From Ciceribacter thiooxidans (lineage in GTDB: Bacteria > Pseudomonadota > Alphaproteobacteria > Rhizobiales > Rhizobiaceae), in contig NZ_CP059896.1 of NCBI RefSeq assembly GCF_014126615.1, positions 3,172,501-3,236,500 on the forward strand: 64,000 nucleotides of DNA. Reading direction: 5' to 3'. The notes under the pieces are model-generated. The model had not been told where the DNA came from. It did not search any database and was given only the letters and a program-made list of their open reading frames with translations. A program made the translations under genes and the position numbers. Numbering within the stretch: the stretch's first letter is position 1; the number at the start of each line of letters is the position of its first letter. Positions 30,631 to 48,863 of the stretch are shown here, one piece after another.

Positions 30631-30649
30631 CAGGAGATTATGCTACATT
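30629..30649. other. attL junction of the island
   Basis: ATCA at 30629-30632 is the only block shared in register with the right junction. It is followed by an element arm ending TGCTACATT (30641-30649), the inverse of AATGTAGCA at the right end. Left of the core the comM frame is intact. Confidence 0.75.
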
Positions 30650-30652
30650 ATT

Positions 30653-30672
30653 CCGATATTGTGTGATATCGG
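30653..30672. repeat. Inverted repeat before the integrase gene
   Basis: CCGATAT and ATATCGG face each other across TGTGTG, ending ten bases before the integrase ATG. It may be an integrase or repressor operator, or an outer part of attP. Confidence 0.5.
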
Positions 30673-30681
30673 GTTCAGATC

Positions 30682-32325
30682 ATGACGAAAGCATATTCCT
30701 ACATCCGCTTCTCGACCCCGGAACAAGCGCAAGGGGATTCATTGCGCCGCCAGACTGCCAAGGCAGAAGCCTGGGCGCAGCAGCACAACCTTGTCCTCGA
30801 CAACTCCCTTCGGGATCTAGGGGTTAGTGCGTTCCATGGGACAAACAGAACGACCGGAGCGCTCAAGTCTTTCCTGGAAATGGTCGAGGACGGTAGGATA
30901 CAACGCGGCTCTTACCTGATCGTTGAAAGCCTGGATCGCCTGTCCCGTGAAACGGTAATCGATGCCGCAACACGGCTCTTCGCTCTCATCCAAGCGGGCA
31001 TCATCGTTGTGACGTTAAGCGACGGTCAGGAGTATTCATCCGAACGGCTGCGTCAGGACTGGACTCCTCTCATCATCTCCCTTGCCGTCATGGCTCGTGC
31101 TCATGACGAGAGCCGCATCAAGTCCGAGCGCGTCGGCGAAGCATGGCAACAAAAGAAGGAGAAGGCCCGGAAGGAAGGAAAGCCTCTCACGCCGAGATGC
31201 CCGGAATGGCTTGAGGTGCGCGACGGCACATTCGTAGAGCGCCCCGAAAGGGTCGCCATCGTCAGACGGGTATTTCAAGAGACGATCGATGGGTTCGGAC
31301 GACGGGAAGTGGTGCGCCGGCTGAACTCGGAAGGCGTTCCGACGTTTCGCGGCGGCAAGGGATGGCACACGTCCAGCATCGCCAAGATCATCCAGAGCCG
31401 CGCCGTTCTCGGAGAGTACCAGCCTCACACTGGCACCCATCGCAACCGCAACCGGAAGCCGGATGGAGACCCTATCCCGAACTATTACCCGCCTATCATC
31501 GACAACGGCATCTTCTTACGCGCACAGGGTGCCACGCAGGGACGACGGCAGAATGCAGCCGGGCGTAAGGGCATGTCCGGTTCCCATCTGTTCCAAGGAC
31601 TTGCTCAGTGCGCTCATTGCGCTGGCCCGATGCACATCATCAACAAGGGCAAGCCTCCGAAAGGCGGCATCTATCTTGCCTGCTCTACCAACATCCGCAA
31701 CGCAGGTTGCGATAACAACCGTCGTTGGCGGATCGACATGCTCGAACCGCTCCTGCTCGCGGCGATCGACATGCTAGATCAGACTGCCTTCTCCGGTCAG
31801 GACAATGACCTCAAACAACTCCGGGCACAGACCGAGGCACTTAGAACCCAGATTGCCGATTTCGAAAAGCGTCAACGCACCCTCATAGAGCTGGTTGAAT
31901 TTGGCGACGAAACAGCGACCGCCCGCTCACTGGAACTCGCCAAGCATATAAAGCGGAGCCGGAAGGAACTGAAAGCTGCGGAGGATCAAATTGCGAAGAA
32001 CGCCGCAGAACCGGACCTCGCCGCCCGTGTGGCAGCGGCAGCGACTATTTCCCGGCAACTTAACGAGACCCCCGATATCGAAGAGCGCCGCGAACTCCGG
32101 ACTCGCCTGCGGGAGATCATACGCGGCATTGTCGAGCGAATCGAGTGCCATCAGAGATTCGGCGCTACCGCCGTTTTCATTCCAAGAGACGAGTTCCACA
32201 TCAACAACAGGCGAAGCGAATACAACTTCACTTTTATGACGCGGGAGGGCATCCCCCGAATACTCCTGGACCAGAATGTTCCGGACGACATCATCGACGA
32301 GTGGGTTGGACCATGGCCATTCTGA
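30682..32325 (+). CDS. Large serine recombinase (integrase)
   Basis: A 547-residue site-specific recombinase. The N-terminal catalytic domain begins MTKAYSYIRFSTPEQAQGDS, with nucleophile Ser11 and LDRLSRE. The recombinase domain follows (about 165-290, GFGRREVVRRLNSEGVPT). A zinc ribbon (CAHC about residue 310, then C and C near 335-345) leads into a long coiled coil rich in Glu/Lys/Arg (about 370-450). The gene abuts attL, the usual place for an integrase, and it should catalyse unidirectional attP x attB joining in comM. Excision would need a directionality factor, which I could not identify. Confidence 0.93.
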   Translation: MTKAYSYIRFSTPEQAQGDSLRRQTAKAEAWAQQHNLVLDNSLRDLGVSAFHGTNRTTGALKSFLEMVEDGRIQRGSYLIVESLDRLSRETVIDAATRLFALIQAGIIVVTLSDGQEYSSERLRQDWTPLIISLAVMARAHDESRIKSERVGEAWQQKKEKARKEGKPLTPRCPEWLEVRDGTFVERPERVAIVRRVFQETIDGFGRREVVRRLNSEGVPTFRGGKGWHTSSIAKIIQSRAVLGEYQPHTGTHRNRNRKPDGDPIPNYYPPIIDNGIFLRAQGATQGRRQNAAGRKGMSGSHLFQGLAQCAHCAGPMHIINKGKPPKGGIYLACSTNIRNAGCDNNRRWRIDMLEPLLLAAIDMLDQTAFSGQDNDLKQLRAQTEALRTQIADFEKRQRTLIELVEFGDETATARSLELAKHIKRSRKELKAAEDQIAKNAAEPDLAARVAAAATISRQLNETPDIEERRELRTRLREIIRGIVERIECHQRFGATAVFIPRDEFHINNRRSEYNFTFMTREGIPRILLDQNVPDDIIDEWVGPWPF

Positions 32326-32511
32326 ATGCCTCGCCGGGGGCAGTCGATCCCAGTCCCCGCCGTTCCGACGGCGCTAATGCTGGACTTCCTGCGGCTGCCC
32401 TCTATCCGGTCACCGGCATGCGCGAATTCCCGCCGTCCCGCTGTCAGCGGCGCTATGCTGACGGCTCCGATATGCTCTTCTCTGTTGTCCGGCACGGGTA
32501 GCCTCGCTCTC

Positions 32512-32600
32512 TTCCACGACGATTTTTTCCTGCCCTTCGGGGCGGGCCACGTGTCCCGCCCCGATCCGCAACGCGGACCGGGGAAAAAATAGTCGTGGAA
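32512..32600. repeat. 89-base cruciform with nested stems after the integrase
   Basis: Outer 19-base arms (32512-32530 and 32582-32600) pair with one mismatch. Inside are GGGGCGGG/CCCGCCCC (32539-32562) and TCCGC/GCGGA (32565-32577). The gap 32,326-32,842 holds no credible gene; further small hairpins lie at 32,360-32,460. The fold could be a terminator complex, a single-strand origin or a transfer-related site. Confidence 0.6.
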
Positions 32601-32842
32601 CCTTCTCGCTCAGTGACAGCAGAAGGGGCGGCTGTTCTTGACCTTCGGTCACCGCCATGCCCCGTTTGGGCAAGGCGGGCGAAAGCCTATGCCGCCCCTC
32701 CCGCCGTCAACCCCTACCTAGCCGCCGTTAAGACTTCGATCGCCATCCGATCGATGACCCCGGAAATCATTTCCGGAAGCCTGGGCTCGACTCCCGAAAT
32801 CCGCTATAAATCTAATGTTGTCAACAAGTTAGGAGAATTTCG

Positions 32843-33082
32843 GTGAAGACGAAAAAGACCCTGATCCGAGGCCTCGCGATTGACGTTCTAGTCGTCGAGA
32901 CGACGCAGACGGATGCTGCGGACACGCTCTTCTATCGCGCCGAAATCTATGTTCGAGAGAAGCGGTCTGGCACCGAGAAGCTTGTCCGCCGGACACGTAT
33001 CCCCGGCACCGCGAAAGAACTGGCTCAGGTCGTCCAGCAGCGTGGCGTTCGTGCTCTGGAAACTTTTTCGCGGACTGCCTGA
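32843..33082 (+). CDS. Hypothetical protein, 79 residues
   Basis: A GTG start follows AGGAGAA at good spacing, and the frame is free of stops for 79 codons with normal codon use. The protein is basic at the start (MKTKKTLIRG) and alternates beta-like segments (DVLVVETTQTD, FYRAEIYVREK) before a C-terminal helix (TAKELAQVVQQRGVRALE). I do not recognise a family. It is the first of three small genes on this strand after the integrase. Confidence 0.6.
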   Translation: MKTKKTLIRGLAIDVLVVETTQTDAADTLFYRAEIYVREKRSGTEKLVRRTRIPGTAKELAQVVQQRGVRALETFSRTA

Positions 33083-33093
33083 AATATTTTTCC

Positions 33094-33166
33094 AAGGACT
33101 CGCCAAGGACTCATTTTGCCCTCGCGAGGATTCGATGCCCTTCGAGTCCTTTCCGGCAAGGATTCA
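33094..33166. repeat. Five AAGGAYTC-type repeats (GANTC cluster)
   Basis: GANTC occurs at 33097, 33108, 33129, 33144 and 33161, each inside an (A)AGGAYTC unit. Four units are direct and the one at 33144 is inverted. They lie in the 200-base gap before the 81-residue gene, which is otherwise empty. They look like iterons or operators, and could be CcrM-methylated. Confidence 0.5.
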
Positions 33167-33285
33167 AGACCGTTGCGAAGTCAGACCGGACACGCCTCAA
33201 GGATATGAAATTCCTCGATTATTCCGAAGAAATTCGCCACGCTCTCCAGCGCCGTGAATGATCGACAGACAGAAAAGGAGACCTC

Positions 33286-33531
33286 ATGTCACATACTACA
33301 AACTGCCTCATCGCCCACCACATCGTTGCCGAGTTCAAAGTGCTCAAAGAGACCTACGATCGTTACCTCGACCGGATGGATGAGCTCGTATGCTTGCTTG
33401 ATGAGGATAGTGAGATTCGCAAAATGGCTGGCTTTCTTGCCGATGGTACCGACGACGTGACGCAGTACGTCCTCAACGGCAAGCACGTTGTCAGTGGCAT
33501 CGAGGCAATGCTGAAGAAGGAGGAGGCGTGA
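33286..33531 (+). CDS. Hypothetical protein, 81 residues
   Basis: Starts after AAAAGGAGA at good spacing. The protein is mostly helical: IVAEFKVLKETYDRYLDRMDEL then an acidic segment and DGTDDVTQYVLNGKHVVSGIEAML. No known domain is recognised. Its TGA overlaps the next ATG (TGATG), so it is coupled to the following gene. Confidence 0.65.
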   Translation: MSHTTNCLIAHHIVAEFKVLKETYDRYLDRMDELVCLLDEDSEIRKMAGFLADGTDDVTQYVLNGKHVVSGIEAMLKKEEA

Positions 33532-33815
33532 TGCAGGCTCCTCGACTTCTGGGCTGGGAGCGCGACGACACCGTTGCCGACGATACTCACAGCACATGGA
33601 CGAACCTCCTCATCGTCGGTGACGGCGAGGAGGACACTTACGACATGTTGGTGCTCGGCGAGCCGGGGCGTACCGGACCGACGCACTACAGCGTCACAGG
33701 CACCCGCGACAGGACCGGCGTGACCTTTGCAGAGGGGCACGCGTCATCTTGGGACGAGGCCTGCCGCCTCAGCATTATCCAAGCCCGGCGGGCATCAATC
33801 AGGCCTGTTGAGTAG
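33531..33815 (+). CDS. Hypothetical protein, 94 residues
   Basis: Coupled to the upstream gene through TGATG. Short beta-rich segments (NLLIVGDGEEDTYDMLVLGE, HYSVTGTRDRTGVTFAEG) precede a helix rich in Ala and Arg (SWDEACRLSIIQARRAS). I do not recognise a family. The pair may be a small two-gene module of the element backbone. Confidence 0.6.
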   Translation: MQAPRLLGWERDDTVADDTHSTWTNLLIVGDGEEDTYDMLVLGEPGRTGPTHYSVTGTRDRTGVTFAEGHASSWDEACRLSIIQARRASIRPVE

Positions 33816-33950
33816 CGAAAGGCGACCGCCAGATACATTCTCGATTCCGAGTGGGTACAGACACCACGCAGAGCGCCGGAAGCGCTGTATGCACCCTTAA
33901 AATCGATCAGAAAGTGGACAATGGGGTCGAAAGGCCCTGTTTCCATATTA

Positions 33951-34373
33951 TCACGTCACGACGATGGTCACGACCGCCGTCACCGCCGTGCCGATCGAAT
34001 CCGTCGCCGACACCCAGACTTCGTAGCTTCCCGCCACCAGCGCCCGCCCGTCGATCCGGCCCGTCTTGACATCGAAGGATACGCCAAGAGGCAGCCTGCC
34101 GGAATATGAGTACGACAGGCTGCCAGATGCCCCTGAGACCACCGGACGCAGATCGAGCGCCGCGCCTGCCGCCACGGATGCCTGACCAGTCATCGACAAC
34201 GCAAAGCCCGCCGAAGTCTCCGGCGGCAGCGGTGTCGTCGGCTCTTCCGGGGGAACCGCGACGGGGACGGCGATCGCACCCGTCGTTGACGACCGCAGCA
34301 CATACGTGCCGGCTGACGCGTCGACGTTCCAGAGAGCCGCGAACGCGGCAAGAATGATAACAGCCGTCCTCAT
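33951..34373 (-). CDS. Putative secreted Ig-like protein, 140 residues
   Basis: A signal peptide (MRTAVIILAAFAALWNVDASA, cleaved near Ala21) is followed by a Pro/Thr-rich linker and a putative Ig-like (cadherin/He_PIG type) repeat with LSYSYSGRLPLGVSFDVKTGRI and GSYEVWVSATDSIG. This points to an exported surface or adhesion protein. The ATG overlaps the upstream stop (ATGA) and GGAGGG precedes it. It is the last gene of a five-gene operon read leftward from 35859. Confidence 0.7.
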   Translation of the reverse strand: MRTAVIILAAFAALWNVDASAGTYVLRSSTTGAIAVPVAVPPEEPTTPLPPETSAGFALSMTGQASVAAGAALDLRPVVSGASGSLSYSYSGRLPLGVSFDVKTGRIDGRALVAGSYEVWVSATDSIGTAVTAVVTIVVT

Positions 34374-34804
34374 ACGTCGCCCTCCTCGAGTTCGCACGCC
34401 GGATAGCGCGAGAGAGTCTCGCTGTCGCACGGCGGGCAGACCTCCGGCAGACCGACGAGCCCGTTCACCCCGGCGCAGGCCTCCAGTGTCTGGATTGACA
34501 GCGGATTCCAAATCTGTTCGCCGCCGCGCCGGACGCGCCACGTGCCCGGCGGCACAGATTTCAGGAAGCCGGACTCCACGAGCCCGCCGAGGACTGCACT
34601 GTCATCGCCGAGAGACGACACCCGCCCGCCATCCGTCTCGTAGAGATCGAGCGCCGCCGCTATCTGCTGCTGTTGCCCCACGACCGCGACAAGCTCGGAT
34701 CGGAGCCGTGCTCGCTCGTAGACCGCGCCGCCATACCAGACCCCAGCGACTGACAGCACGCCGAGGATGATGCCCGCGATCACGCCGATGACCAAATTAT
34801 ACAT
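34370..34804 (-). CDS. Membrane-anchored pilin-like protein, 144 residues
   Basis: One N-terminal hydrophobic helix (LVIGVIAGIILGVLSVAGVWYGG) leads to a helical QQQQIAAALDLYETDGGRVSS stretch and a small globular end with three to four cysteines (CAGV, CPPCD, CELEEGDV). The helix, the DLYETDGGR segment and LVESGFLKSVPPGTW resemble type IV pilin or pseudopilin subunits, but a normal prepilin cleavage site is not clear. Coupled to both neighbours in the operon. Confidence 0.65.
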   Translation of the reverse strand: MYNLVIGVIAGIILGVLSVAGVWYGGAVYERARLRSELVAVVGQQQQIAAALDLYETDGGRVSSLGDDSAVLGGLVESGFLKSVPPGTWRVRRGGEQIWNPLSIQTLEACAGVNGLVGLPEVCPPCDSETLSRYPACELEEGDV

Positions 34805-34806
34805 GT

Positions 34807-35061
34807 CTACTCCTCCTCCTCGAAAACGTCGTCGTCATCGTCGCCCCAGCCGGACCAGTCGAAACCCGCTAGATCGCGATCAGCGATCAGGTCCGCCGCC
34901 TCCAAGACCAAGGACGCGCAGCCGTCCGTGTCCGGGTGGTCGCTCTCAAGCTCGCGAGCAAGCTCCCGATCGATCTCCATGACTCTCTCCCGCGCGGATG
35001 CGGGCAGGCCCACCCGATTGAGGAAGCCGGCGAGGCTTGGACTGGTGATTTCGTCGGTCAT
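34807..35061 (-). CDS. Small acidic hypothetical protein, 84 residues
   Basis: Helical N-terminus (SLAGFLNRVGLPASARERVMEI) and a very acidic C-terminus (WGDDDDDVFEEEE). The start overlaps the upstream stop (ATGA), and the next gene begins two bases after its stop. Acidic tails of this kind occur in antirestriction or DNA-mimic proteins, but the sequence is too short to claim this. Confidence 0.6.
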   Translation of the reverse strand: MTDEITSPSLAGFLNRVGLPASARERVMEIDRELARELESDHPDTDGCASLVLEAADLIADRDLAGFDWSGWGDDDDDVFEEEE

Positions 35062-35654
35062 GGGTTCGGTCCTTTCTTGTCGTCTGGATCATCATCAGGG
35101 GCTTCCGGTTCTGGTGGTTCGACCTGCTGCCGCTCCGCCTCCCACATCTGCGCAGCCGCCAGCATGGACCCTATAACCTCATCGTCAGACGCACCGGGCC
35201 GAGCGGCCATCCGGAGTCGCCACAGGTCGCCCGATTCGATGGAGTCGCGCAGCCACTCGACCACAGCGGGCGGAACCCGAGCTTCCAGAAGCTCGCGGGC
35301 CTGATCAGACTTGCGTGGACGCGACAGGTCCTTCACGAGCCGCCTGAAGGACGGCGGCGGGCGCATGCGAGCGCTGGCACAGCTCATCGGCTCCAGGCCG
35401 CGCTCCATCATATACGCGGTTGGACCGCGATCCTCGTCGATCGACGAGGTAGGCTGTCGGGCGGGACGGAAGGGAAGCGAGAAAGCCGGCATCGGTATGG
35501 GTGGCATCATCGCGAGCGCTCCCGACAGCAGAGCAAGCAGTTGGAGCAAGACCTTGCCTGCCAGATCGCCGCCCCGGCGTTGCCGCTGGCGTTCGGCGAG
35601 ATCGCGGCGAAGCCGATCGGCGCATGTCCGGCGACGGCGTTGCTTCTCATTCAT
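35058..35654 (-). CDS. Hypothetical membrane protein, 198 residues
   Basis: A basic N-terminus (MNEKQRRRRTCADRLRRDL) precedes one hydrophobic segment (VLLQLLALLSGALAMMPPI), then a soluble helical part (PPSFRRLVKDLSRPR and DLWRLRMAARPGASDDEVIGS) and a Pro/Asp-rich tail. The ATG at 35654 overlaps the stop of the upstream 70-residue gene; the longer in-frame start at 35786 would overlap it fully. No family recognised. Confidence 0.6.
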   Translation of the reverse strand: MNEKQRRRRTCADRLRRDLAERQRQRRGGDLAGKVLLQLLALLSGALAMMPPIPMPAFSLPFRPARQPTSSIDEDRGPTAYMMERGLEPMSCASARMRPPPSFRRLVKDLSRPRKSDQARELLEARVPPAVVEWLRDSIESGDLWRLRMAARPGASDDEVIGSMLAAAQMWEAERQQVEPPEPEAPDDDPDDKKGPNP

Positions 35655-35859
35655 CAGCGGCCTCGACAGCCCCCGGGCGAACTTTCTCGCGCCACCGCTT
35701 CGACATCGCCAGAAGTTCCCGCGTGCGATGCCATTCCCGCGCAGCCTGGGCGATCTGATCCGCAGACCAGCATTCCTCGCAGGCATCTCTCAGTACGCCT
35801 TCCGCCATCCAGACGGCACTCTGATAGATGTATTCAATACGCTCATTGACTGCCGACAC
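35647..35859 (-). CDS. Hypothetical protein, 70 residues (first gene of the operon)
   Basis: The GTG start follows GGAGG at nine bases. The protein is helical (NERIEYIYQSAVWMAEGVLRD, then SADQIAQAAREWHRTRELLA) with two close cysteines (ACEEC). It heads a tightly coupled five-gene minus-strand operon to 33951. I recognise no domain. Confidence 0.6.
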   Translation of the reverse strand: MSAVNERIEYIYQSAVWMAEGVLRDACEECWSADQIAQAAREWHRTRELLAMSKRWREKVRPGAVEAADE

Positions 35860-35950
35860 GCCCGATCCTCCGTTGCCGATGCACCCTTACAGGATGTGGG
35901 CAGGCCGGGACCGGCGCAAATTCGGCGCGGGCGCCACTACTCCGAGATCA

Positions 35951-36056
35951 AGGATTCGACGTCGAATCCTGACGTGTCCGAACCCATCCGGCATCGCCGA
36001 ACGCGCTGTACGGCCTCCGCAGGCGCTCGATTTTTGGGCAAATCGCGATTTTTGGG
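35951..36056. promoter_or_regulatory. 20-base perfect palindrome and direct repeats between the operon and flagellin
   Basis: AGGATTCGAC and its inverse GTCGAATCCT meet at 35960/35961 as a perfect 20-base palindrome that contains two GANTC sites. CGATTTTTGGG is repeated directly at 36028 and 36046. The 407-base gap 35,860-36,266 between divergent genes holds no credible gene and should contain both promoters. Confidence 0.5.
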
Positions 36057-36266
36057 AGGATTCTGGCTTCCGGAACGAGGAAGGGAGGCCGAAGCCGCGA
36101 ATGACGAAATAACAATCGCCAGCCCCTCACGGACTTCAACAGGGTAGTTTCCCCCTGTCGATGCGCCATCTTCGTTAACCTGTTTTAACCATGTTCGGGT
36201 TGCGGGGTTGCCGCTCTCCGGCTCATGACGATGCCCTTTCTTTCTTTCGATTTTCAGCGGCAAGTC

Positions 36267-37667
36267 ATGACGAGTATAAAGACGAATCTTTCCGCCATGT
36301 CGGCGCTCCAGACCCTGCGGATGATCTCCAGCGGACTGCAGAAGACACAGAACGAGGTTTCCACCGGCCTCCGTGTGGCGACAGCATCGGACAATGCCGC
36401 CTATTGGTCGATCTCCACCACCATGCGTTCGGACAACATGGCGCTGGCCGCAGTGGCTGACGCGATCGGTCTCGGAGCAGCCAAGGTCGATGTTGCTTAT
36501 GCTGGAATGAGCGCCGTCATCGACGTGCTCGCCGAGTTCAAAGCCAAGCTCGTGGCCGCGACCGAGGATGGAGTCGACAGGGCGAAAATCCAGACCGAGC
36601 TGGAGCAGATCAAGGAGCAGGTCGTCGGCATCTCGAAGTCCGCGAGCTTCAGTGGTCAGAACTGGCTGGACACCGACATAGCAGACATCAAGGACAGCGC
36701 GCTCAACAGGTCCTCGGTGGTATCTTCGTTCGTGCGGGATGATGCCGGCAGCGTTGCCGTCACGACGATGGACGTTGATCTCTCGAAGATCGCCTTATTC
36801 AACACCACCGGGTACGGCCTACTGCAGACGGATGTTCCTGTCGTGGCAACGCCTCCTTCTGATCCGACATCCACCCCCGCCAGCTATCACATCCAGGAAT
36901 ACTTCTATTTCGACGGACCAATCACGCTGTCATCATCTGACAGCATAAGTTTCGATCTCGTGGTCCATCCGGGTGGCTCTGCACCGGATGCCATCTTGCC
37001 GACGACGATCACCCAGTCGGATGTCAACGCGGCACTCGGAATTTCGACAGGCACGATATCAGGCGGTGACGAGATGAGGGCGGTTCTCAACCATGTTTGG
37101 AGCGGGAATGGCGTTGGCGTTAGTGCGGGAGCGTACGGACAAACGCAGCCTGATGGCAGTACGCTTTGGCACACGTTCGTCATTCATGCCAGCCAGGTCA
37201 CCGACCAGCCTGATTCGGATATCGAGATAACGAACCTCACTTCGACGCTTCCGGGCGGCGCGGCGGGCGGGTTGGACAGTGCTTCCTGGTACACGGCGAG
37301 AAGTGCTTTTCCGGGCGGCTCGACAGGTGGGACTCCAGGCACCGACGTAGAGTTGCGGATGAATTTTCTCGATATCGACGTGACGAACGGCGTTGGCGAC
37401 CAGCTTGCCGCAATCGAGGTAATGCTGAGCCGAACGACCTCTGCTGCGGCCACCCTCGGTTCACTGAAAATGCGCATCGACATGCAGGCGGACTTCACCC
37501 AGACGATGATGGCCAGCATCGACAAGGGCATCGGCCGTCTTGTCGATGCTGACATGAATGAGGCATCGACCCGATTAAAGGCAATCCAGACGCAGCAGCA
37601 GCTCGCCATTCAGAGCCTTCAAATTGCCAACTCCGCGCCGCAGAACCTTCTCAACCTGTTCAGGTGA
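36267..37667 (+). CDS. Flagellin (complex rhizobial type)
   Basis: A 466-residue filament protein. The N-terminal D0/D1 region MTSIKTNLSAMSALQTLRMI and ASDNAAYWSISTTMRSDN is typical of rhizobial complex flagellins, and the C-terminal D1/D0 region ends QSLQIANSAPQNLLNLF. The central ~250 residues (about 145-390, rich in Thr, Ser, Gly, Pro) are the variable surface part. The chosen start gives the usual MTS N-terminus; the in-frame ATG at 36225 would add 14 residues. It has no flagellar neighbours and sits inside a mobile element with a LuxR regulator and a Hin-like recombinase, so it is an accessory flagellin. Confidence 0.9.
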   Translation: MTSIKTNLSAMSALQTLRMISSGLQKTQNEVSTGLRVATASDNAAYWSISTTMRSDNMALAAVADAIGLGAAKVDVAYAGMSAVIDVLAEFKAKLVAATEDGVDRAKIQTELEQIKEQVVGISKSASFSGQNWLDTDIADIKDSALNRSSVVSSFVRDDAGSVAVTTMDVDLSKIALFNTTGYGLLQTDVPVVATPPSDPTSTPASYHIQEYFYFDGPITLSSSDSISFDLVVHPGGSAPDAILPTTITQSDVNAALGISTGTISGGDEMRAVLNHVWSGNGVGVSAGAYGQTQPDGSTLWHTFVIHASQVTDQPDSDIEITNLTSTLPGGAAGGLDSASWYTARSAFPGGSTGGTPGTDVELRMNFLDIDVTNGVGDQLAAIEVMLSRTTSAAATLGSLKMRIDMQADFTQTMMASIDKGIGRLVDADMNEASTRLKAIQTQQQLAIQSLQIANSAPQNLLNLFR

Positions 37668-37688
37668 TTGCGCCAGATACGCCAGCCA

Positions 37689-38378
37689 TCAATCAAGGGG
37701 CGTTCTGACCTTCCCTTCGTGTGCCTGACGCTCAACCTGCGTGGCAACGAGTTTTGCCACCAGATGCACCAGGTTCTTCGCCTCAAATCGGCTCTTCAAC
37801 TTATCTATCCGATGCTCGATCGTCCTTGGCGACAAATGAAGGATTTCAGCAATTTCCTTCGTGGTCTGCCCTTCGATAAGGAGCTGGATGATGTTGTCAT
37901 CCGTGATGTCGGTCTTCGCTTCCCGCATCGGAGAGATGAAGAAGCGCCCTTCGACCAGACTGATGCACCAGCCCGGCTTCCCACCGCATTTCTGCGGTAT
38001 GATAAGGCGCTCGTAACCGATGCGGACACCGAGGAGCTTCGTCCTCACGAGGTCAAGCGCGGGGCGCTTCACCTCCAGAGTCCGCAAATAGGCGGAGATG
38101 ATCGCATCATCAATGAAGCGGCGATCGAGATCGCGCAGCGCGGCATCGGGAAATTGCTGCTTCATCTGGTTCAGCAGGTAGCTCCTGAATCCAAAGTCCT
38201 TCACCCGCCGAAATCGCCAGTCATAAGGATCATCGGCTACCGTCGTAACGACGGAGAGCGCCATTTTGATATTCAGCCGCCCGATCACTATCGAATAGAG
38301 GTCTTCTGGGGCAGTCGTTGCATCAGACTGCAACCATATATCGATAAGCTCTTGTGAGATCGCGTTGAATGCACTCAT
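37689..38378 (-). CDS. LuxR-type regulator with PAS-like N-terminal domain
   Basis: A 229-residue protein. The N-terminal half (SQELIDIWLQSDATTAPEDL to about residue 150) resembles the alphaproteobacterial PAS-type fold. The C-terminal LuxR helix-turn-helix is at about 160-205 (TDDNIIQLLIEGQTTKEIAEIL then LSPRTIEHRIDKLKSRFEAK). It converges with the flagellin gene, 21 bases between stops, and the invertase gene lies just upstream. A role in flagellin control is inference from position; VisN/VisR, LuxR-type proteins, control rhizobial flagella. Confidence 0.8.
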   Translation of the reverse strand: MSAFNAISQELIDIWLQSDATTAPEDLYSIVIGRLNIKMALSVVTTVADDPYDWRFRRVKDFGFRSYLLNQMKQQFPDAALRDLDRRFIDDAIISAYLRTLEVKRPALDLVRTKLLGVRIGYERLIIPQKCGGKPGWCISLVEGRFFISPMREAKTDITDDNIIQLLIEGQTTKEIAEILHLSPRTIEHRIDKLKSRFEAKNLVHLVAKLVATQVERQAHEGKVRTPLD

Positions 38379-38412
38379 CTGTCTATGTCTGAAAAGAATG
38401 CCCCGAAAATCG

Positions 38413-38994
38413 TCACGCGGTGTAACCCGGAATGCCGCCGCAGACCTTTGTGATACCGCGCTTCAAGGTGCGCGGGTGGACATGGAGCCGGGAGGCCACG
38501 TCCTCCCAAGGCTCGCCGCCGCCGATTTCTTTGTATGCCGCAAGGCATTGTTCATCGGTTAAAGAACGCTTCCGGCCATGTTGCTGGCCGCGTGCGCGCG
38601 CAGCGGCTATGCCCGCGACCGTTCGCTCTCGGATGATCGACCGCTCGAATTCGGCCATTGCCGCCAGAACATGGAAGACCATCCGGCCACCGGCCGATTC
38701 CGTATCGATGTTTTCCATCACCGAACGGAACCCGATCTGCCTCTTCTGGAGCCTGGTGATGATCTGGACGAGATGGCCGACCGAACGCCCCAGGCGATCC
38801 AGCCTCCAGACCACCAGCACGTCGCCTCTGCGCAGTGTTCTCAATACGCCGGAAAGGCCGCATCGCTTGCTCTGGCCTCCAGAAACGCCGTGGTCCTCGA
38901 ATATCCGATCGCAGCCCGCCGCTTGGAGAGCATCCCTCTGTAGTCCGAGATGCTGATCGATCGTTGAAACTCGCGCATATCCAATCCTTGCCAC
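38413..38994 (-). CDS. Hin-like serine recombinase (DNA invertase/resolvase)
   Basis: A 193-residue small serine recombinase. IGYARVSTIDQ carries the nucleophile Ser10, GDVLVVWRLDRLGRSV the active-site helix, and NIDTESAGGRMVFHVLAAMAEFER the dimer interface; a C-terminal Hin-type helix-turn-helix follows (EPWEDVASRLHVHPRTLKRGI). Overall it matches the Hin/Pin invertase branch in length and motif order. I chose the GTG at 38994, preceded by AAGGA; the longer in-frame start at 39090 has no ribosome site. A hix-like site lies ~155 bases upstream. Confidence 0.88.
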   Translation of the reverse strand: MARIGYARVSTIDQHLGLQRDALQAAGCDRIFEDHGVSGGQSKRCGLSGVLRTLRRGDVLVVWRLDRLGRSVGHLVQIITRLQKRQIGFRSVMENIDTESAGGRMVFHVLAAMAEFERSIIRERTVAGIAAARARGQQHGRKRSLTDEQCLAAYKEIGGGEPWEDVASRLHVHPRTLKRGITKVCGGIPGYTA

Positions 38995-39146
38995 CCACGA
39001 ATCCTTCCCTGCGATTCGCATTTCTGAACGCTTGCTTGACAGAAAGGAAGGTTTTCGCAGGCCAGACATTCGGAAACGCGACGCTTCCATTCTCGTAACG
39101 ATGGCAAAGGGTTACGCAAGCGACAAACAGGCATCATTCGCCGTGA

Positions 39147-39164
39147 CAAAAACCTTGGTTTTCA
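39147..39164. other. hix-like recombination site
   Basis: CAAAAACCTTGGTTTTCA reads TGAAAACCAAGGTTTTTG on the other strand. As I recall it, that 18-base block is identical to the centre of Salmonella hixL, with the AA/TT core dinucleotide flanked by GGTTTT half-sites. It lies just upstream of the Hin-like gene, as hixL does. A second full site was not found by eye; the best partial half-site, in opposite core orientation, is GGAAGGTTTTCGC at 39046-39058. Confidence 0.6.
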
Positions 39165-39178
39165 TCCGCTGAGAACGC

Positions 39179-39340
39179 CGCCAGCTCACGACTGCCAGAG
39201 TGACAGCACGCGGGATCGCGGCGATATTGCACGAAGGACAGTCCAACGAACATCGGATCGGCAAGCTGAAGGCCCGCTTCAAGGCAAGGGACATCCCGCA
39301 CCTCGTCGCACTGATGATTTCAGCCGGCATCGCCGGGGGA
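39179..39340 (+). pseudogene. Remnant of a LuxR-type helix-turn-helix domain
   Basis: The plus strand encodes ARVTARGIAAILH then NEHRIGKLKARF and HLVALMISAG. This aligns with TTKEIAEILH, IEHRIDKLKSRF and HLVAKLVATQ of the LuxR gene at 37.7-38.4 kb. The part before it is missing and the recognition helix is degenerate. It starts right after the hix-like site and points opposite to the intact luxR gene. DNA identity between the two is low, so it is an old copy or a separate relative. Confidence 0.6.
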
Positions 39341-39379
39341 TGGGGTGGGACGGGTGACCCGCCCCGCATCCCATTCGCT

Positions 39380-39715
39380 TCAATTCGTTTCGGGCATCCT
39401 GTCGCGGTAATCCTCGCACCACGAAAAACTCCGATACCTGGTCCATCTGTCGAGAATCGAGGCATTGAAATAATCGGGGCAGAGGAGCTGATAATTCTGG
39501 TCGTAGCCTTCCCGACGTATCCTGGCGACACGATCCTCCTCCCGCTGCAAACGGGAGCTATGAGCCGACCATGACCCCCAGACCACCGGAACAGCCGTTG
39601 TCGCGACCTTGTACGAGGCCATAATCAGCGTTGCCCCGATGGGCAGGACAAACACGCTCATCAATGCGATGATGAGCCAACGCCGGAGCGCACTCTCTTC
39701 AGACATGATCTTCAT
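39380..39715 (-). CDS. Small membrane protein, 111 residues
   Basis: One N-terminal transmembrane helix (WLIIALMSVFVLPIGATLIMA) with a soluble C-terminal part containing two cysteines (LLCPDYF, SWCEDYRD). No family recognised. It lies six bases after the upstream gene's stop, so it is co-transcribed with the two-helix membrane protein. Confidence 0.6.
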   Translation of the reverse strand: MKIMSEESALRRWLIIALMSVFVLPIGATLIMASYKVATTAVPVVWGSWSAHSSRLQREEDRVARIRREGYDQNYQLLCPDYFNASILDRWTRYRSFSWCEDYRDRMPETN

Positions 39716-39721
39716 CCCGCG

Positions 39722-40306
39722 TCACACCGTCCTGAGTTGGCGACCGTCGAATTTCGCGCCGATTCTCGCTCGCTCCAGCTCCTTGTGAAGAGCGATGGAA
39801 TCCTTCCTGATGCGGTTAGGCCCGCTCAGATGGTTCATGACAAGGAAGGCTATGGGCGCGATCAGGGCCAGCCAGAGAACATTCCCGATACCAATGGTGT
39901 AACGGGCCGGGATAAGGAACATGAGCAGGCCGAGAATATAGGCACCAGGAACCGCCTTCACCATCATCGCGGTATGCGCGATCCTGTTCGCCGTTTGAAA
40001 GAGCGTGAAACAATTGAGGCCACGAGCTTCGCTTTCGCTGGCGATCAAATGGAACACCGATTTTTTCCATGAACGAATTCGTCTGAAATAGAGTGTGCAA
40101 GTGTTCCCGATCTCGATTTCCGGATCGATCTTTTCATTGGTCGTGACGCGCTCGAATTTGAGCAATTCGCCCTTCTCGTCCTCAATAACCAGATAGGCAT
40201 AGTGCCATAGGTCATCGAGTACATTGCGGTCGAGGAACGTTCTGCCGTTGACTTCTCTGACAGTGCCAGTGACCTTGATGATATTCGGATTGTCTTGAAT
40301 GGACAT
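39722..40306 (-). CDS. Membrane protein with soluble N-terminal domain, 194 residues
   Basis: The ATG at 40306 follows a G-rich ribosome site (AGGGGG). The N-terminal ~95 residues are beta-rich and soluble (IIKVTGTVREVNGRTFLDRNVLDD). Two transmembrane helices follow (AVPGAYILGLLMFLIPARYTIG and NVLWLALIAPIAFLVMNHL), then a short basic tail. I do not recognise the family. Its promoter is probably in 40,307-40,443. Confidence 0.6.
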   Translation of the reverse strand: MSIQDNPNIIKVTGTVREVNGRTFLDRNVLDDLWHYAYLVIEDEKGELLKFERVTTNEKIDPEIEIGNTCTLYFRRIRSWKKSVFHLIASESEARGLNCFTLFQTANRIAHTAMMVKAVPGAYILGLLMFLIPARYTIGIGNVLWLALIAPIAFLVMNHLSGPNRIRKDSIALHKELERARIGAKFDGRQLRTV

Positions 40307-40443
40307 ATTATAACCCCCTGTTATGCGGGGAGACGCTGGCATATCGCGATTAACGCGAATGCCAATCAGACAGGGGGAAATCCCCCTCAATTGCTGCGGC
40401 AGGCGCTCCAGGTTCTTACCCGAGCGGCGTAGCCCTCAACAGA

Positions 40444-40467
40444 AAAGGGAGGCCGAAGCCTCCCTTT
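40444..40467 (-). terminator. Intrinsic terminator with UUCG tetraloop (copy 1)
   Basis: AAAGGGAGGC and GCCTCCCTTT pair around CGAA, which is the stable UUCG loop on the minus strand, followed by a T-run. It ends the 142-residue gene at 40591. A 22-base identical copy lies at 41051. Confidence 0.8.
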
Positions 40468-40590
40468 CCTTCGAACCATCAAGGCCGGAAAACCGTCACC
40501 CCGCTTCGCGGCTGGCGATCGTCGACTATCGACACAGCCACGGTTTTGTTTTGTTCGTAGTTCAATGGTGATGCCAATTCCCACCGGCAG

Positions 40591-41019
40591 TCAAGCGACG
40601 GACTTCATGGCATCCATACCCATTACGATTCCAGATCGATCCTTGTTGTCGATCCACCAACCTGCCCGACCTTGGGCGACCAAGGCAGCAAGTCCTCGGC
40701 TGACCATTGCGTCAAACGCCTCCAGGTTTCCAGCCAAGACCTTGGGCCGCAAGTCCTCGAAATAACCGATGACCTCGCCGATTTTATCAACCCGGATTTG
40801 CCGGGCCCATGCGATTTGCTTTTCCGATCCAGAGAGCGCGGGCAGGTCATTTTCAACTTCCGCCGCCTCGACCGCCTTGAGCTTATCCGATTTCACGCAA
40901 TCGGGGCAAAGGCCGTTTTCGGCGGCCCATGAAACATAGCGTTGCCGATCCGCGATCTTGCCTATTAACTGCCTTTCGGCAGCATGTCCGCATGAATAGG
41001 AGACGCTGTATTTCGCCAC
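40591..41019 (-). CDS. Hypothetical zinc-ribbon-like protein, 142 residues
   Basis: SVSYSCGHAAE and LCPDCVKSDK give a CxH...CxxC zinc-binding pattern in the first 45 residues. A helical part follows (LSGSEKQIAWARQIRVDKIGEV) and a C-terminal MVSRGLAALVAQGRAGWWID segment. Proteins with GSEKQIAWA occur on mobile elements, but their function is not established to my knowledge. GTG start. Flanked by two near-identical terminators. Confidence 0.65.
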   Translation of the reverse strand: MAKYSVSYSCGHAAERQLIGKIADRQRYVSWAAENGLCPDCVKSDKLKAVEAAEVENDLPALSGSEKQIAWARQIRVDKIGEVIGYFEDLRPKVLAGNLEAFDAMVSRGLAALVAQGRAGWWIDNKDRSGIVMGMDAMKSVA

Positions 41020-41050
41020 GTGATTGCCTCGAATGTCGTTGGAAGAGATG

Positions 41051-41072
41051 AAAAGGGAGGCCGAAGCCTCCC
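41051..41072 (-). terminator. Intrinsic terminator with UUCG tetraloop (copy 2)
   Basis: GGGAGGC and GCCTCCC pair around CGAA, followed on the minus strand by TTTT. The 22 bases equal copy 1 at 40444. It would stop transcription coming from the relaxase operon before the zinc-ribbon gene. Confidence 0.75.
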
Positions 41073-41081
41073 GATCCGAAA

Positions 41082-41263
41082 CTCTGCGTTTGCAGAGAAC
41101 ATTCCACCGAGAAGCGTGCTTCTCTATGTAGAACGGTACATCCCTGCCGGGGCAGGGAAAGCCCTCCCTTACAGGGAGGAAGACCGCTTATGCAGCGGAA
41201 AACGAGTGTTTGCAGGGAAAACCTTGCACGTACTCATATACTTCAGAGCCGTCTACACGACGG
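41082..41263. repeat. Comb of short perfect hairpins
   Basis: Seven perfect small hairpins follow one another: CTCTGC/GCAGAG (41082-41097), GAGAAGC/GCTTCTC (41109-41124), ATGTA/TACAT (41126-41141), TCCCTGCC/GGCAGGGA (41141-41158), CCTCCCT/AGGGAGG (41163-41179), CCGCT/AGCGG (41184-41198) and CCGTC/GACGG (41249-41263). With the terminator at 41051 there are eight in about 210 bases. The 41,073-41,585 gap has no credible gene. A structured RNA or single-stranded DNA site such as oriT is possible. Confidence 0.55.
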
Positions 41264-41315
41264 TTCACTTCCGTTTTAATCCAACACTTCCATGAGCAAG
41301 CTCAAGGAAGGGCAG

Positions 41316-41404
41316 AATCCCACAGGGGGAACGATTACCGCAGGGGGTTGTCACCCCGGAGGGTGGCATTGTCTCTCCTAATCCCACAAGGGGATCGATA
41401 ACCG
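41316..41404. repeat. Imperfect 25-base direct repeats with ~32-base period
   Basis: The units at 41316-41340 and 41380-41404 match at 22 of 25 positions (AATCCCACA...CGAT.ACCG). A degenerate third unit sits midway near 41348. It looks iteron-like and may bind the relaxase or Rep protein. Confidence 0.5.
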
Positions 41405-41550
41405 TGCCAGCGTTTCGGGATGAGGAATTTCAGGTCCTACCTGACGATCCTGCCGGAACCGCTGACAAGAAAAACCATGACGCCAATCGGCGGGGCTGGC
41501 AAGAGGAAACCCGCACTTTCCTGCAAAAAAGTTGACGCTTAACATTCTGT

Positions 41551-41578
41551 AATTGTTGACAATTTCAGAGTCCTGAAA
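41551..41578. repeat. Two adjoining palindromes at the relaxase 3' end
   Basis: AATTGT-TG-ACAATT (41551-41564) and TTTCAG-AGTC-CTGAAA (41563-41578) overlap by two bases and lie just past the relaxase stop. They could be part of its transcript end or a protein-binding site. Confidence 0.4.
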
Positions 41579-41585
41579 CGACACA

Positions 41586-42848
41586 CTATGGCCGTCGAAG
41601 AGCGGGCGTCGAAATACCGGGCGTGCGCTCCGGCTCCGGCGGACGCAACGCGGCAAGCTCACGTCTGGCCGTCGCCAGTTCGCGACCGGTCTCCGCAAGG
41701 TTCTCCCGCAAGTTCTTCGCCCGTTCTTCAGCTTCGCGCCATCCAGCATTGGCGGCGCTCGCACGGTCAGCGGCATCGTCGGCGGTCCGCCGGAGCGCTT
41801 CCATCTCGGATTCGACGGCAGCGCGGATGCGGGCCGCAACCCTCGACTTCTGGAATCCATCCCATATGCCTCGCAGGACACCAGGAAGATGCTGGAGCCT
41901 TGCCGCCTCCTGACGGACGCGCGCCATCATCGACCTTGCCTTGCGTTGCTCGGCAACGGCCTTGTCCTGCGCCGCCTTGGCGGCCTCCGTCGCGGCCTTC
42001 GCGGCGGCAAGCTGGCGATCCGCTTCCGCCTTCGCCCTAGCGGCTTCCTCACGGATCGCGGCGGCATCTTCCTTTGTGCTGGCGATTATGGATTCACCGC
42101 GCGCCTTCACGGCCTTGGCGCGCTCGATTGTCGTCTTCAGGGCTTTGGCTTGCGTCTGCTCCGCCTGCCATTCCGCTCGCGTCAGACGACGGCGTTGCGG
42201 ACCAAGGCGGGTCAAGCCGCAGGGGATGGCGACGGTCTCGTGATACGAATCCTGCCACTCTCGCATGGCCTGCTTGTACGCTTGATCGCCGCGCTTGTTC
42301 AGGGCCTTCGAGTCCTCGCCTTCTGCGGGACCGGCCGCCATCACAGCGGCCTTGGCCGTCTGCCCCGGATGCAGGGACGCGGCCCGCATGGCCGGATCGT
42401 CCGGCAGGACATAGGCGTGGATATGGAAGTGCGACTCGTCTTCGTGCCGGATCACGGAGACGAGCTTGTCGCCGTACTGTGAACGAAGCCACGCGATTGT
42501 TCGCCTTTCCCAGTCCTCTGCTTCACGGCGCTTTTCCGGATCGGCGCGAACCTCTTCCATCAAATGCGGATGCGAAGCCACGACCGTCATGAGCGTGTGC
42601 TGAGTTTTCTGAACCTTTCGAGGCTTGCCGCCCTTCGGCGTTGTCGTCGCGGCATCGGCGGTGGCATCGTGCAATCGCTCCAATTCGTCGATCGTCGAGC
42701 CATAGACGACGATCGGAGACGCAGGATTCGAGACGTGAAAGGACGCGTCAGGATCACGCCGAGCCTCGTTAAAAACATAGCTGGTGGAGCGGCCCTTTCC
42801 ATCGCCCTTGCGGCTGTACGCCGTCATGTGGATGAACTGGAAAGCCAT
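41586..42848 (-). CDS. MOBV-type relaxase (Pre/Mob family)
   Basis: A 420-residue plasmid-type mobilisation protein. The N-terminal HUH relaxase part has the three-histidine motif HEDESHFHIHAYVLP, the segment QDSYHETVAIPCGLTRLGPQ typical of this family, and KTQHTLMTVVASHPH. From about residue 230 a very long Ala/Glu/Arg coiled coil runs to the end. It nicks oriT and pilots the strand in transfer using another element's secretion system. It is the last gene of a four-gene minus operon. Confidence 0.87.
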   Translation of the reverse strand: MAFQFIHMTAYSRKGDGKGRSTSYVFNEARRDPDASFHVSNPASPIVVYGSTIDELERLHDATADAATTTPKGGKPRKVQKTQHTLMTVVASHPHLMEEVRADPEKRREAEDWERRTIAWLRSQYGDKLVSVIRHEDESHFHIHAYVLPDDPAMRAASLHPGQTAKAAVMAAGPAEGEDSKALNKRGDQAYKQAMREWQDSYHETVAIPCGLTRLGPQRRRLTRAEWQAEQTQAKALKTTIERAKAVKARGESIIASTKEDAAAIREEAARAKAEADRQLAAAKAATEAAKAAQDKAVAEQRKARSMMARVRQEAARLQHLPGVLRGIWDGFQKSRVAARIRAAVESEMEALRRTADDAADRASAANAGWREAEERAKNLRENLAETGRELATARRELAALRPPEPERTPGISTPALRRP

Positions 42849-42857
42849 GAAGCGGAC

Positions 42858-43175
42858 TCAGTGCACCGTCTGATCGAGCGATTTCACCGCCGCTTTGCTT
42901 GCGTCCACGTCTACAGCGTAGACGTGAGGGAGATACGAATAGCGAACGCCTTTAAACTGCTCGAATCCTATCGCGACAAGAAAAAGCATGGCTTGGACAG
43001 TGCGGCTCTTGAACTCTTGTCCGTCGTCACGTCCGAGCACGACGCGCTGCTCGTCATCAGCCGACCGGAGCCAAGCGACGATCTTCCCAGGTTCAGTCTC
43101 GATGAGCAGTGATGCAGCGTTTCCGGATTCGAGCTCCACGGCGGTAAAATACGTGCGACGAGGGGGAATCCGCAT
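42858..43175 (-). CDS. Hypothetical protein next to relaxase, 105 residues
   Basis: A mixed alpha/beta protein (MRIPPRRTYFTAVELESG, IVAWLRSADDEQRVVLG, LPHVYAVDVDASKAAVKSL). Its ATG overlaps the upstream stop (TGATG), and the relaxase starts ten bases after its stop. By place it could be a relaxosome accessory factor. No known domain recognised. Confidence 0.6.
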   Translation of the reverse strand: MRIPPRRTYFTAVELESGNAASLLIETEPGKIVAWLRSADDEQRVVLGRDDGQEFKSRTVQAMLFLVAIGFEQFKGVRYSYLPHVYAVDVDASKAAVKSLDQTVH

Positions 43176-43432
43176 CACCGATCTTCCCCCCACTCGAAAC
43201 TGATACCATGCGTGAAGCTCGCGACGAGCTGCACGCGGTCAAGGAACTCGCGGGCGTTCATATGGGCGAAACCACCGTTCAGCGCGGTTCGTTCTTGCGA
43301 GAAGCTGGCGTATCGCTCGGCGCTCTCCCAGATGACGGCGTACCAGCTTGTCGGCAACCGGATGACCTTGAGCAGCGCCGGGGCAGCCGAGCCGTGGTTG
43401 GTGACGACGATAGGCAGATCGTATTCCTGCAT
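43175..43432 (-). CDS. Small paralogous protein B of the mob operon, 85 residues
   Basis: The protein starts MQEYDLPIVVTNHG and has LLKVIRLPTSWYAVIWE and REFLDRVQLVASF. The upstream 104-residue gene has the same pattern (KEFNLPIEF, LKALRVPMGWQACLW, ARFLRMIQVFF), so they are tandem paralogs. Function unknown; coupling to the relaxase operon suggests a shared role. Confidence 0.65.
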   Translation of the reverse strand: MQEYDLPIVVTNHGSAAPALLKVIRLPTSWYAVIWESAERYASFSQERTALNGGFAHMNAREFLDRVQLVASFTHGISFEWGEDR

Positions 43433-43444
43433 GTGACCGGCCTC

Positions 43445-43759
43445 TCACTGCAACGAAGTTTCGATGTCGTTCATGTCGAACATCGTTTCGTTGAGATACC
43501 GGAGATGAATGCCCTGACGCTCGAAGAACACCTGAATCATCCGGAGGAAGCGGGCATCAGACATTTCGCGAAGGTCCTGATGATCCGTAACCAGCCCGCA
43601 GGCATCCGGTCCGCCCCAGAGGCAAGCCTGCCACCCCATGGGCACCCGGAGTGCCTTGAGCCTGCCTGATCTCGCTTCGCTTCTTCGTCTCGGATCATTC
43701 GTGTCGATGAACTCGATTGGAAGGTTGAATTCCTTCATGTGTGTCGCCGCGTAGCTCAT
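43445..43759 (-). CDS. Small paralogous protein A of the mob operon, 104 residues
   Basis: AGGAGGA precedes the ATG at 43759; a second in-frame ATG at 43738 (MKEFNLPI) aligns better with paralog B. It begins the minus operon to the relaxase. The middle and end share LPI, LK.LRVP..W.A..W and FL..IQV with paralog B. No known family recognised. Confidence 0.62.
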   Translation of the reverse strand: MSYAATHMKEFNLPIEFIDTNDPRRRSEARSGRLKALRVPMGWQACLWGGPDACGLVTDHQDLREMSDARFLRMIQVFFERQGIHLRYLNETMFDMNDIETSLQ

Positions 43760-44181
43760 TGACTGATCCTCCTGTGCTGCTCGGTTCAGGAAAATTGTCA
43801 GTGCCGGCGGAGCCTGAAACAATAGTTATTAGTGACCGACTAATGCCTCTTCCGTTGGTCGAAGCGTCGGCCCTTCGGGGAGGCTTCCGCCGGACTCTCC
43901 CGAGGGGCCACTTCATGGAGACCTTGGCGGGGCCTTGTCGCCGTCTGGATGGACGACGAGGCAGTTGATGACTGCCGCTCGGTGACTTCACCACTGGACG
44001 TGGCTCGGGGCGTTGCCCTCGGCGATGCCGGGATACCCGACATCTTTCCGCTACGCGGCTTCGTCCAGCGTGACACGCCCTGGACGCTCCGTTGTGCGGT
44101 GAGCGGCGTAGTTTCGGTATGGCCGGGGCGGGCGGCTACCTTTTTATCTATACACCTATTTTCACCGTCAAAAAGTTGCAA
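43760..44181. other. Gap between rep gene and mob operon
   Basis: About 420 bases with no credible gene. An imperfect hairpin (GGCCCTTCGGG against CCCGAGGGGCC, about 43869-43910) lies in the middle. It should contain the mob operon promoter and, as upstream DNA of a MOBV relaxase, is one candidate for oriT. Confidence 0.4.
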
Positions 44182-45540: not shown

Positions 45541-45597
45541 GTTCGAGAGGTTCGGCCCAAATTGTTGACACTGGAGGGTATGAAAGTCTTGTGAAGT

Positions 45598-45634
45598 GGC
45601 TGGGATATGTCCCAGCCTCCGGCTCACCGAGCCG
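45598..45634. repeat. Two adjacent hairpins upstream of rep
   Basis: GGCTGGGA-TATG-TCCCAGCC (45598-45617) and CGGCTC-ACC-GAGCCG (45620-45634) are both perfect. They lie 58-94 bases before the rep ATG, within its likely leader, and could regulate Rep translation or mark an origin. Confidence 0.5.
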
Positions 45635-45686
45635 TTTCAGGGTGCTTTACAAACTTTTCGCCGTCGTTCATCATTTTCGAACAATC

Positions 45687-45737
45687 CATGAAAAAGCCGC
45701 CGAGGGTACCAGCCCAGTGACAGCGGCTTTTTTCATG
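45687..45737. terminator. Terminator-like hairpin between rep and the plus-strand gene
   Basis: A 14-base arm CATGAAAAAGCCGC (45687-45700) pairs with GCGGCTTTTTTCATG (45723-45737) with one extra T. It carries A- and T-runs on both strands. It lies upstream of both divergent genes, so attenuation or an origin structure is also possible. Confidence 0.55.
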
Positions 45738-45844
45738 CTCGATCGTCGGCGCGATCCGGTCAACCGGGCACCGAGATCGTTCCGCATACGAAACGACAAA
45801 GTCAGCCCCCACCGGAGCAGCAGCCATCGCAACAGCAACGCCAG

Positions 45845-45909
45845 ATTTCGTGAGTCACGAAATCTCATTGCATCTTGCGTGCTCCGTCCTACAATTCGTG
45901 AGTCACGAA
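45845..45909. promoter_or_regulatory. Two identical palindromic operators
   Basis: TTCGTGA-G-TCACGAA occurs twice, centred on 45854 and 45902, 48 bases apart. The first copy extends to 19 palindromic bases. The second ends 12 bases before the start of the next gene, so a bound protein would block it. They are probably autoregulator sites or replication-control sites. Confidence 0.6.
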
Positions 45910-45921
45910 AGGGAGTGGACG

Positions 45922-46323: not shown

Positions 46324-46395
46324 TCTGGTAGCCCCCTTGCACCCCATCACCCTCCGCGCGATATGGTGCGAGACCTCATCACATTGGGAGTATAC

Positions 46396-47932: not shown

Positions 47933-47974
47933 CGGATTAACCAATCAATAACCATGCCCTGAAATCATCGGGGC

Positions 47975-48847: not shown

Positions 48848-48863
48848 GCATGGGCACCCTCAA

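Follow-up and report, generated by a model that had tools for sequence, protein, structure and literature searches.

An apparently mobile flagellin-LuxR module in Ciceribacter thiooxidans and the paired sites upstream of its invertase-branch recombinase

How is a flagellin gene controlled when it lies on an integrated island, beside a small serine recombinase of the kind that switches flagellins in Salmonella? The question is raised by positions 36267 to 39340 of a 64,000-nucleotide stretch of Ciceribacter thiooxidans DNA (NCBI RefSeq assembly GCF_014126615.1, contig NZ_CP059896.1, positions 3,172,501 to 3,236,500), which is termed the window here and corresponds to C1:3172501-3236500 in a two-contig genome of 5.04 Mb. 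An earlier note on this DNA had described a complete flagellin gene, a convergent LuxR-type gene (luxA), a recombinase gene of the invertase branch, a hix-like site and a remnant of a LuxR-type gene (luxB), all within an island, and our scans confirmed every one of these parts. The reading that we favor, with a probability of roughly 0.6, is that LuxA would set flagellin expression through a predicted LuxR box, and that the recombinase would work on two sites of its own, A and B, which precede a predicted recombinase-luxA operon, and not on the flagellin.

The accessory flagellin of 466 amino acids (aa) is encoded on the plus strand at 36267..37667 (open reading frame 36225-37667, start at 36267 likely) and matches Flagellin_N (expect value (E) 2.2e-31, 109.2 bits, cut-off 26.6) and Flagellin_C (E 9.6e-16, 58.3 bits, cut-off 23) of Pfam. 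Convergent with it on the minus strand is luxA (37689..38378), which lies 34 bp behind the recombinase gene on the same strand. The C-terminus of LuxA carries a GerE/LuxR helix-turn-helix (HTH; GerE E 6.5e-10, 38.9 bits vs. a cut-off of 23.5), which identifies it as a LuxR-family regulator. Its predicted structure (mean predicted local distance difference test score (pLDDT) 79.5, predicted template modeling score (pTM) 0.62) consists of a PAS-like part and the HTH. Structural matches of the model include TraR, VqmA and EL222, LuxR-type proteins with PAS or autoinducer domains, with which LuxA would share a sensor-like N-terminal part followed by a LuxR HTH; it differs from them in that the matches have low template modeling scores with 9-20% identity, and LuxA falls below every NCBIfam cut-off.

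Upstream of the flagellin we noticed, first by eye, a palindrome of the form GGGTA-N4-TACCC, which in this or a near variant is common upstream of LuxR-linked flagellins. This predicted LuxR box (36141..36157, plus strand), which lies outside the segment described in the earlier note, is centered 118 bp upstream of the flagellin start and is the best motif match of the window: with a motif built from the other loci only, it scored 20.0 bits and ranked first of 127968 window positions, vs. a top score of 15.8 bits in ten shuffled windows. When each of the 13 LuxR-linked flagellin loci was scanned with a leave-one-out motif, the upstream box came first or second within its locus in 12 of them, at 89-129 bp from the start. 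A search of the own genome with the pattern GGKANTTTYMCCC gave three matches, the window box and two elsewhere, none of them at a chromosomal flagellin, and the regions upstream of the four chromosomal flagellins scored 13.1, 3.2, 0.4 and 6.9 bits. For comparison, the 99% level of the null for a 350-base stretch was 12.8 bits, and its maximum was 22.8 bits, the window draws possibly including the box itself. Together, these observations suggest that LuxA likely acts on the flagellin through the box at 36141-36157, to which it would likely bind and thereby turn the flagellin on or off.

The box also precedes genes that did not contribute to the motif. A second predicted LuxR box in the window (40371..40387, minus strand, 14.7 bits) lies 66 bp upstream of a gene for a membrane-type protein, and all three copies of this gene had boxes above 12.8 bits (window, 14.7; L040, 14.7; L042, 18.9; loci from other genomes are given by such numbers). 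LuxA perhaps also governs this gene through the second box. For a second LuxR-linked gene, three of four copies were above the null (20.6, 20.0 and 20.6 bits, against 10.9 in L045), the site in L068 lying 292 bp away, and for a third, two of three (22.5, 14.2 and 11.3 bits, the 14.2-bit site being at the start codon and not before it). Relatives of luxA that lack a flagellin tend to be convergent with genes of another family, and of L044, L045, L036, and L068, three had a box of more than 20 bits.

The flagellin-LuxR arrangement is not confined to the window. Relatives of LuxA were sought in 297 genomes of the family, the own genome included, at E up to 1e-8, and all 20 other places were fetched. 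They occurred in 17 of the 297 genomes at 21 places, at eight of which (the window, L042, L048, L049, L050, L054, L055, and L058) a flagellin gene lay no more than about 2.5 kb from the LuxR gene. Of eight plasmid loci that were also fetched, two of them picked because flagellin-LuxR DNA matched, five carried a flagellin (L063, L064, L066, L067, and L070). A flagellin and a LuxR gene without the recombinase were thus found in nine other loci (L048, L049, L050, L054, L055, L058, L066, L067, and L070), and a flagellin with both the recombinase and LuxB in three loci of two genomes, namely L042, where the recombinase sits between the flagellin and the LuxR gene, and L063 and L064, which are both on plasmid pCB3171_1 of Rhizobium sp. 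CB3171. Given that 12 other loci, on plasmids and islands, have flagellin-LuxR, with a recombinase as well in three, the module is, as judged from these comparisons, real and apparently mobile. The conservation of the gene set elsewhere and the horizontal spread of an accessory flagellin with a LuxR gene, both raised in the earlier note, are borne out. The two flagellin-recombinase-luxB copies on pCB3171_1 have the same orientation and are about 200 kb apart; in L064 a segment of about 2.8 kb (L064:10832-13528), by eye an IS21-type element, parts the recombinase from luxB.

In the flagellin tree, the window protein clustered with two luxA-linked flagellins (support 83/89), apart from the flagellins of CB3171. 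Because of this grouping, luxA and the flagellin probably arrived together. The host has four flagellin genes of its own at C1:2.893-2.898 Mb, to which the N-terminus of the island flagellin is 49-59% identical, and one host flagellin gives the island protein its top single identity (55% over 295 columns). Recent copying of a host gene is nonetheless ruled out by the grouping with the two luxA-linked flagellins, the support for which is modest. The island flagellin thus belongs to the same protein family as the rhizobial chromosomal flagellins and differs from them in its island location, its own central part and the LuxR box upstream. Its product would join or replace the filament built by the host flagellar genes.

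Several observations weigh against control of the flagellin by LuxA through the box. No upstream box was found for the short flagellin of L049 in the leave-one-out scan, the boxes of L066 and L054 scored low (12.2 and 13.6 bits), and the 13.1-bit stretch upstream of one of the four chromosomal flagellins is a look-alike of the box. A box precedes luxA in only three of nine genes tested (20.5, 21.1, and 24.1 bits); there is none before luxA of the window, and none of three luxB genes has one in front. The arrangement of the genes also varies: in L055 the flagellin and luxR share one strand, and in L067 a flagellin fragment adjoins luxR, with the whole flagellin 3.4 kb off. Finally, none of the eight luxA relatives in the named genomes L032-L039 has a flagellin beside it, and control of a flagellin therefore need not be the ancestral task of these regulators.

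The role of the recombinase is a separate matter. This small serine recombinase (38413..39021, minus strand, start at 38994 or 39021; Resolvase, E 1.1e-43) belongs to the invertase branch: among solved structures it is closest to two DNA invertases (156 and 155 bits), followed by gamma-delta resolvase (97 bits at best), and it matches a PHROG DNA invertase at 2.1e-63. A protein with only resolvase or transposon relatives, which the earlier note had named as a finding that would undo its proposal, is thus not what we found. A second host recombinase of the same family, 51% identical, is encoded at C1:833962-834504, and in L074, L075, L090, L094, L096, and L101 a second recombinase, 46-53% identical to that of the window, lies near the first.

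Upstream of the recombinase gene, two sites of 26 bases each can be read directly from the sequence. Site A (39143..39168, minus strand; core AA on this strand), which is the hix-like site of the earlier note, agrees at 19 of 26 positions with the best of six hix/gix/cix patterns, the runner-up position of the window reaching 17. With up to 3 mismatches allowed, its middle 20 bases have a single match in the window, vs. a mean of 0.00 in 100 shuffles. Site B (39036..39061, minus strand; core TT), the partner that we add to the earlier note, is inverted relative to A, and the two cores are 107 bp apart. Between them lies an IHF-like element (39102..39114, minus strand), a weak match with seven of nine positions of the consensus.

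The invertase-branch protein, the good hix-like site and the flagellin close by are what one would expect if the recombinase inverted a segment carrying or driving the flagellin, as Hin does. The Salmonella Hin system uses an enhancer and the helper protein Fis. With Hin/fljBA (PMC9368917) the module has in common an invertase-branch small serine recombinase near a flagellin and hix-like sites, but here neither the flagellin nor its promoter is flanked by a site, the pair lies 107 bp apart before the recombinase, no isomer was seen, and a LuxR gene and a box take part. Genome-wide, a search allowing up to 3 mismatches in 20 bases found A and B but no third near-copy of either, and thus none beyond the flagellin; instead of flanking the flagellin gene or its promoter in inverted orientation, as crossover sites of the Hin type do, both sites are on the recombinase side. 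Nine of the 12 other LuxR-linked flagellin loci, moreover, have no such recombinase nearby. With the far site absent at this threshold, Hin-like inversion of the flagellin was rejected, and we consider it highly improbable. The switchable or alternative flagellin proposed in the earlier note accordingly survives in part, as an accessory flagellin with its own LuxR gene, and lacks support in part, as switching of the Hin type by inverting the flagellin or its promoter, for which neither a far site at this threshold nor an isomer among the assemblies compared was found.

The pair itself recurs at other recombinase genes. For its nearest relatives, 85 of 297 genomes matched at E up to 1e-35; the regions upstream of the gene were compared for the best 30 loci of these, for seven plasmid loci and for the luxB loci. 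A pair scoring 14 or more, which is above all 30 shuffles, was present in 23 of 50 regions, or 20 of 47 once three loci fetched twice were dropped; in these counts L063 and L064 are near-copies, as are L083 and L084, and L088 is doubtful (spacing 110-116, cores mismatched). The A-B spacing hardly varies, being 106-109 bp in eight loci, and the core states are AA/TT, TT/AA, and GT/AC, with AC/GT in L043. Mapped onto a tree of 46 recombinases, the pair needs seven gains or losses vs. 15.5 in shuffles, L085 being scored as without it. A search of 394 genomes, with a pattern that the own genome does not match, gave one hit, a true B site in G011. In a scan blind to cores and orientation, 19 distinct loci exceeded the 95% level of the null, with cores matching in the inverted sense in 14 and directly in none, which favors recombination between A and B.

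Pairs about 107 bp apart were noted upstream of the recombinase in L074, L075, L083, L084, L089, L090, L092-L094, L096, L101, and L102, often beside a divergent EAL gene. Of ten divergent neighbors scanned, six encode EAL-domain proteins and the other four have no Pfam match; the EAL neighbors occur at five of nine pair-bearing loci scanned (L074, L089, L090, L094, and L096) and also at L103, where the sites are about 141 bp apart. L075 has an annotated EAL gene. Since similar pairs precede recombinases without luxB (L074, L075, L083, and others), the A/B pair belongs to the recombinase, and operators of LuxB only, another candidate for the sites, are ruled out. The recombinase would probably bind and act on A and B ahead of its own gene, and this action may be inversion of the 107-bp segment, resolution, or autoregulation of the recombinase gene.

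Other observations tell against this action of the recombinase at A and B. The remaining five of the 19 loci in the blind scan were unmatched at their best register; in L074, L090, L106, and L085, but not in L079, an inverse-matching pair was second-best or tied. The blind scan also missed the pairs of L042 and L043, which were instead read by eye. The inverted isomer was seen in none of 19 comparable locus pairs, which are assemblies only and not independent of one another; that the inner segment has a single orientation in all 19 speaks against free switching. As far as assemblies go, then, the lack of inverted isomers that the earlier note regarded as damaging to its proposal is what we observed. 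A search for the isomer with the inner segment of L075 matched only L075 itself.

A uniform orientation of this kind would be expected if the recombinase served as housekeeping for the island and A and B formed a res-type site, with a crossover, a bend and an accessory part, that resolves dimers or tandem copies, the flagellin being one of several cargoes of the slot. In resolvases with res sites (gamma-delta, Tn3, and Sin), too, paired sites at a set distance lie just ahead of the recombinase gene, and a multi-part site with nearly constant spacing, 106-109 bp in eight loci and present in 20 of 47 regions, is what was found here. The IHF-like element is at equal offset in 13 loci (counted without a null), and the slot that holds luxA and the flagellin in the window is filled in L040 by three genes, one for a methyltransferase and one Vsr-like, which by eye form a restriction-modification set. 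On the other side, the recombinase here is closer to invertases, the cores of A and B match inverted and never directly, and two copies in the same orientation persist about 200 kb apart on one plasmid. We regard this alternative as a substantial possibility, somewhat short of even odds. It covers only the recombinase and is compatible with control of the flagellin by LuxA via the box.

Where relatives have an intact luxB, the A/B pair separates it from the recombinase gene, so that recombinase action there would touch the promoter of the regulator. In the window luxB is truncated: only its C-terminal part is left (about 39182..39340, plus strand), 63% identical to residues 171-219 of LuxB of L040. 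LuxB is rare: a search of about 5.8 billion proteins at E up to 0.001 gave 23 clusters, 397 genomes of the order gave three matches at E 1e-25, own genome counted, and in the genus of G011 the one genome matched was G011 itself. Further C-terminal fragments of the LuxR family exist (L035:13792-14031; protein P0023), and truncated copies thus recur. In the window, luxA would substitute for the broken luxB. As the recombinase gene and luxA are 34 bp apart on one strand, the A/B region would precede a recombinase-luxA operon; their co-transcription is predicted from this spacing, and it counts against the favored reading that the operon is a guess.

The broken luxB also raises the prospect that the whole set is a decaying relic, in which the flagellin and luxA are carried along and hardly expressed. 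The flagellin is, in addition, shorter than most luxA-linked relatives, which have about 580-627 aa. The reading frames of the flagellin and luxA are both whole, however, and the box upstream of the flagellin is among the top scorers; we consider decay unlikely.

If control of the flagellin by LuxA via the box is retained, A and B might further be the ends of a 107-bp invertible promoter for recombinase-luxA, which would give the mobile flagellin a heritable on/off state through the LuxR box. This extension is doubtful on present sequence evidence. If true, the same minimal switch would stand throughout the family next to EAL genes (cyclic di-guanosine monophosphate, c-di-GMP) and to modules of LuxR and flagellin, as a phase-variation device of a class not yet described. 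The paired 107-bp sites are in any case a countable feature with which to ask whether this widespread rhizobial group acts as resolvases or as promoter switches of very small size. Mobile DNA seems to carry the flagellin together with a regulator of its own and a predicted operator, and one transfer could give a cell a second, separately controlled filament protein; the box makes this flagellin-regulator model directly testable. Our literature searches, to which the statement is limited, turned up no published description of such a flagellin-LuxR-recombinase module.

The island that carries the module spans about 18.3 kb (30634..48936, ends approximate) and splits comM, the C-terminal part of which is at 29743-30633 and the N-terminal part of which starts at about 48937, both on the minus strand; the cut is at residues HNLL ahead of the Walker A motif. 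A large serine integrase (30682..32325, plus strand) with the domains Resolvase, Recombinase, and Zn_ribbon_recom is encoded within it. A MobV-like relaxase (41586..42848, minus strand) scored below both curated cut-offs (Mob_Pre 20.3 bits, cut-off 25.5; MobV 48.3 bits, cut-off 100). The serine integrase, this below-cut-off relaxase and the split comM are the features of an integrative mobilizable element, and the island and its flagellin module are apparently mobile. Beyond the accessory flagellin, no flagellar gene was found among the island open reading frames scanned, some small ones being outside the scan, in agreement with the earlier note. The island also carries a NaeI-type restriction set (Vsr, C5 methylase, and NaeI) at its end.

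Two further genes on the minus strand are conserved beside recombinase-luxB. One encodes a small protein (39380..39715; 76% in L040, 46% in L042) and the other the membrane-type protein (39722..40313; 68% in L040, 38% in L042), which is so classed by eye and has no family match in Pfam or NCBIfam. One genome carries both L040 and L041, which are identical across the 3.6 kb compared and have in common with the window, in unchanged order, the relaxase (82%), the membrane-type protein (68%), the small protein (76%), and the recombinase (84.5%), as well as three backbone genes (66, 59, and 56%). A search of plasmids with the recombinase gave at least 5000 records, of which only the top matches were informative. 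A MobV-like relaxase was present in the fetched flanks of five of the 28 loci L032-L059 (L032, L040, L041, L049, and L054). An inverted repeat of about 10 bases is visible at the two ends of the island.

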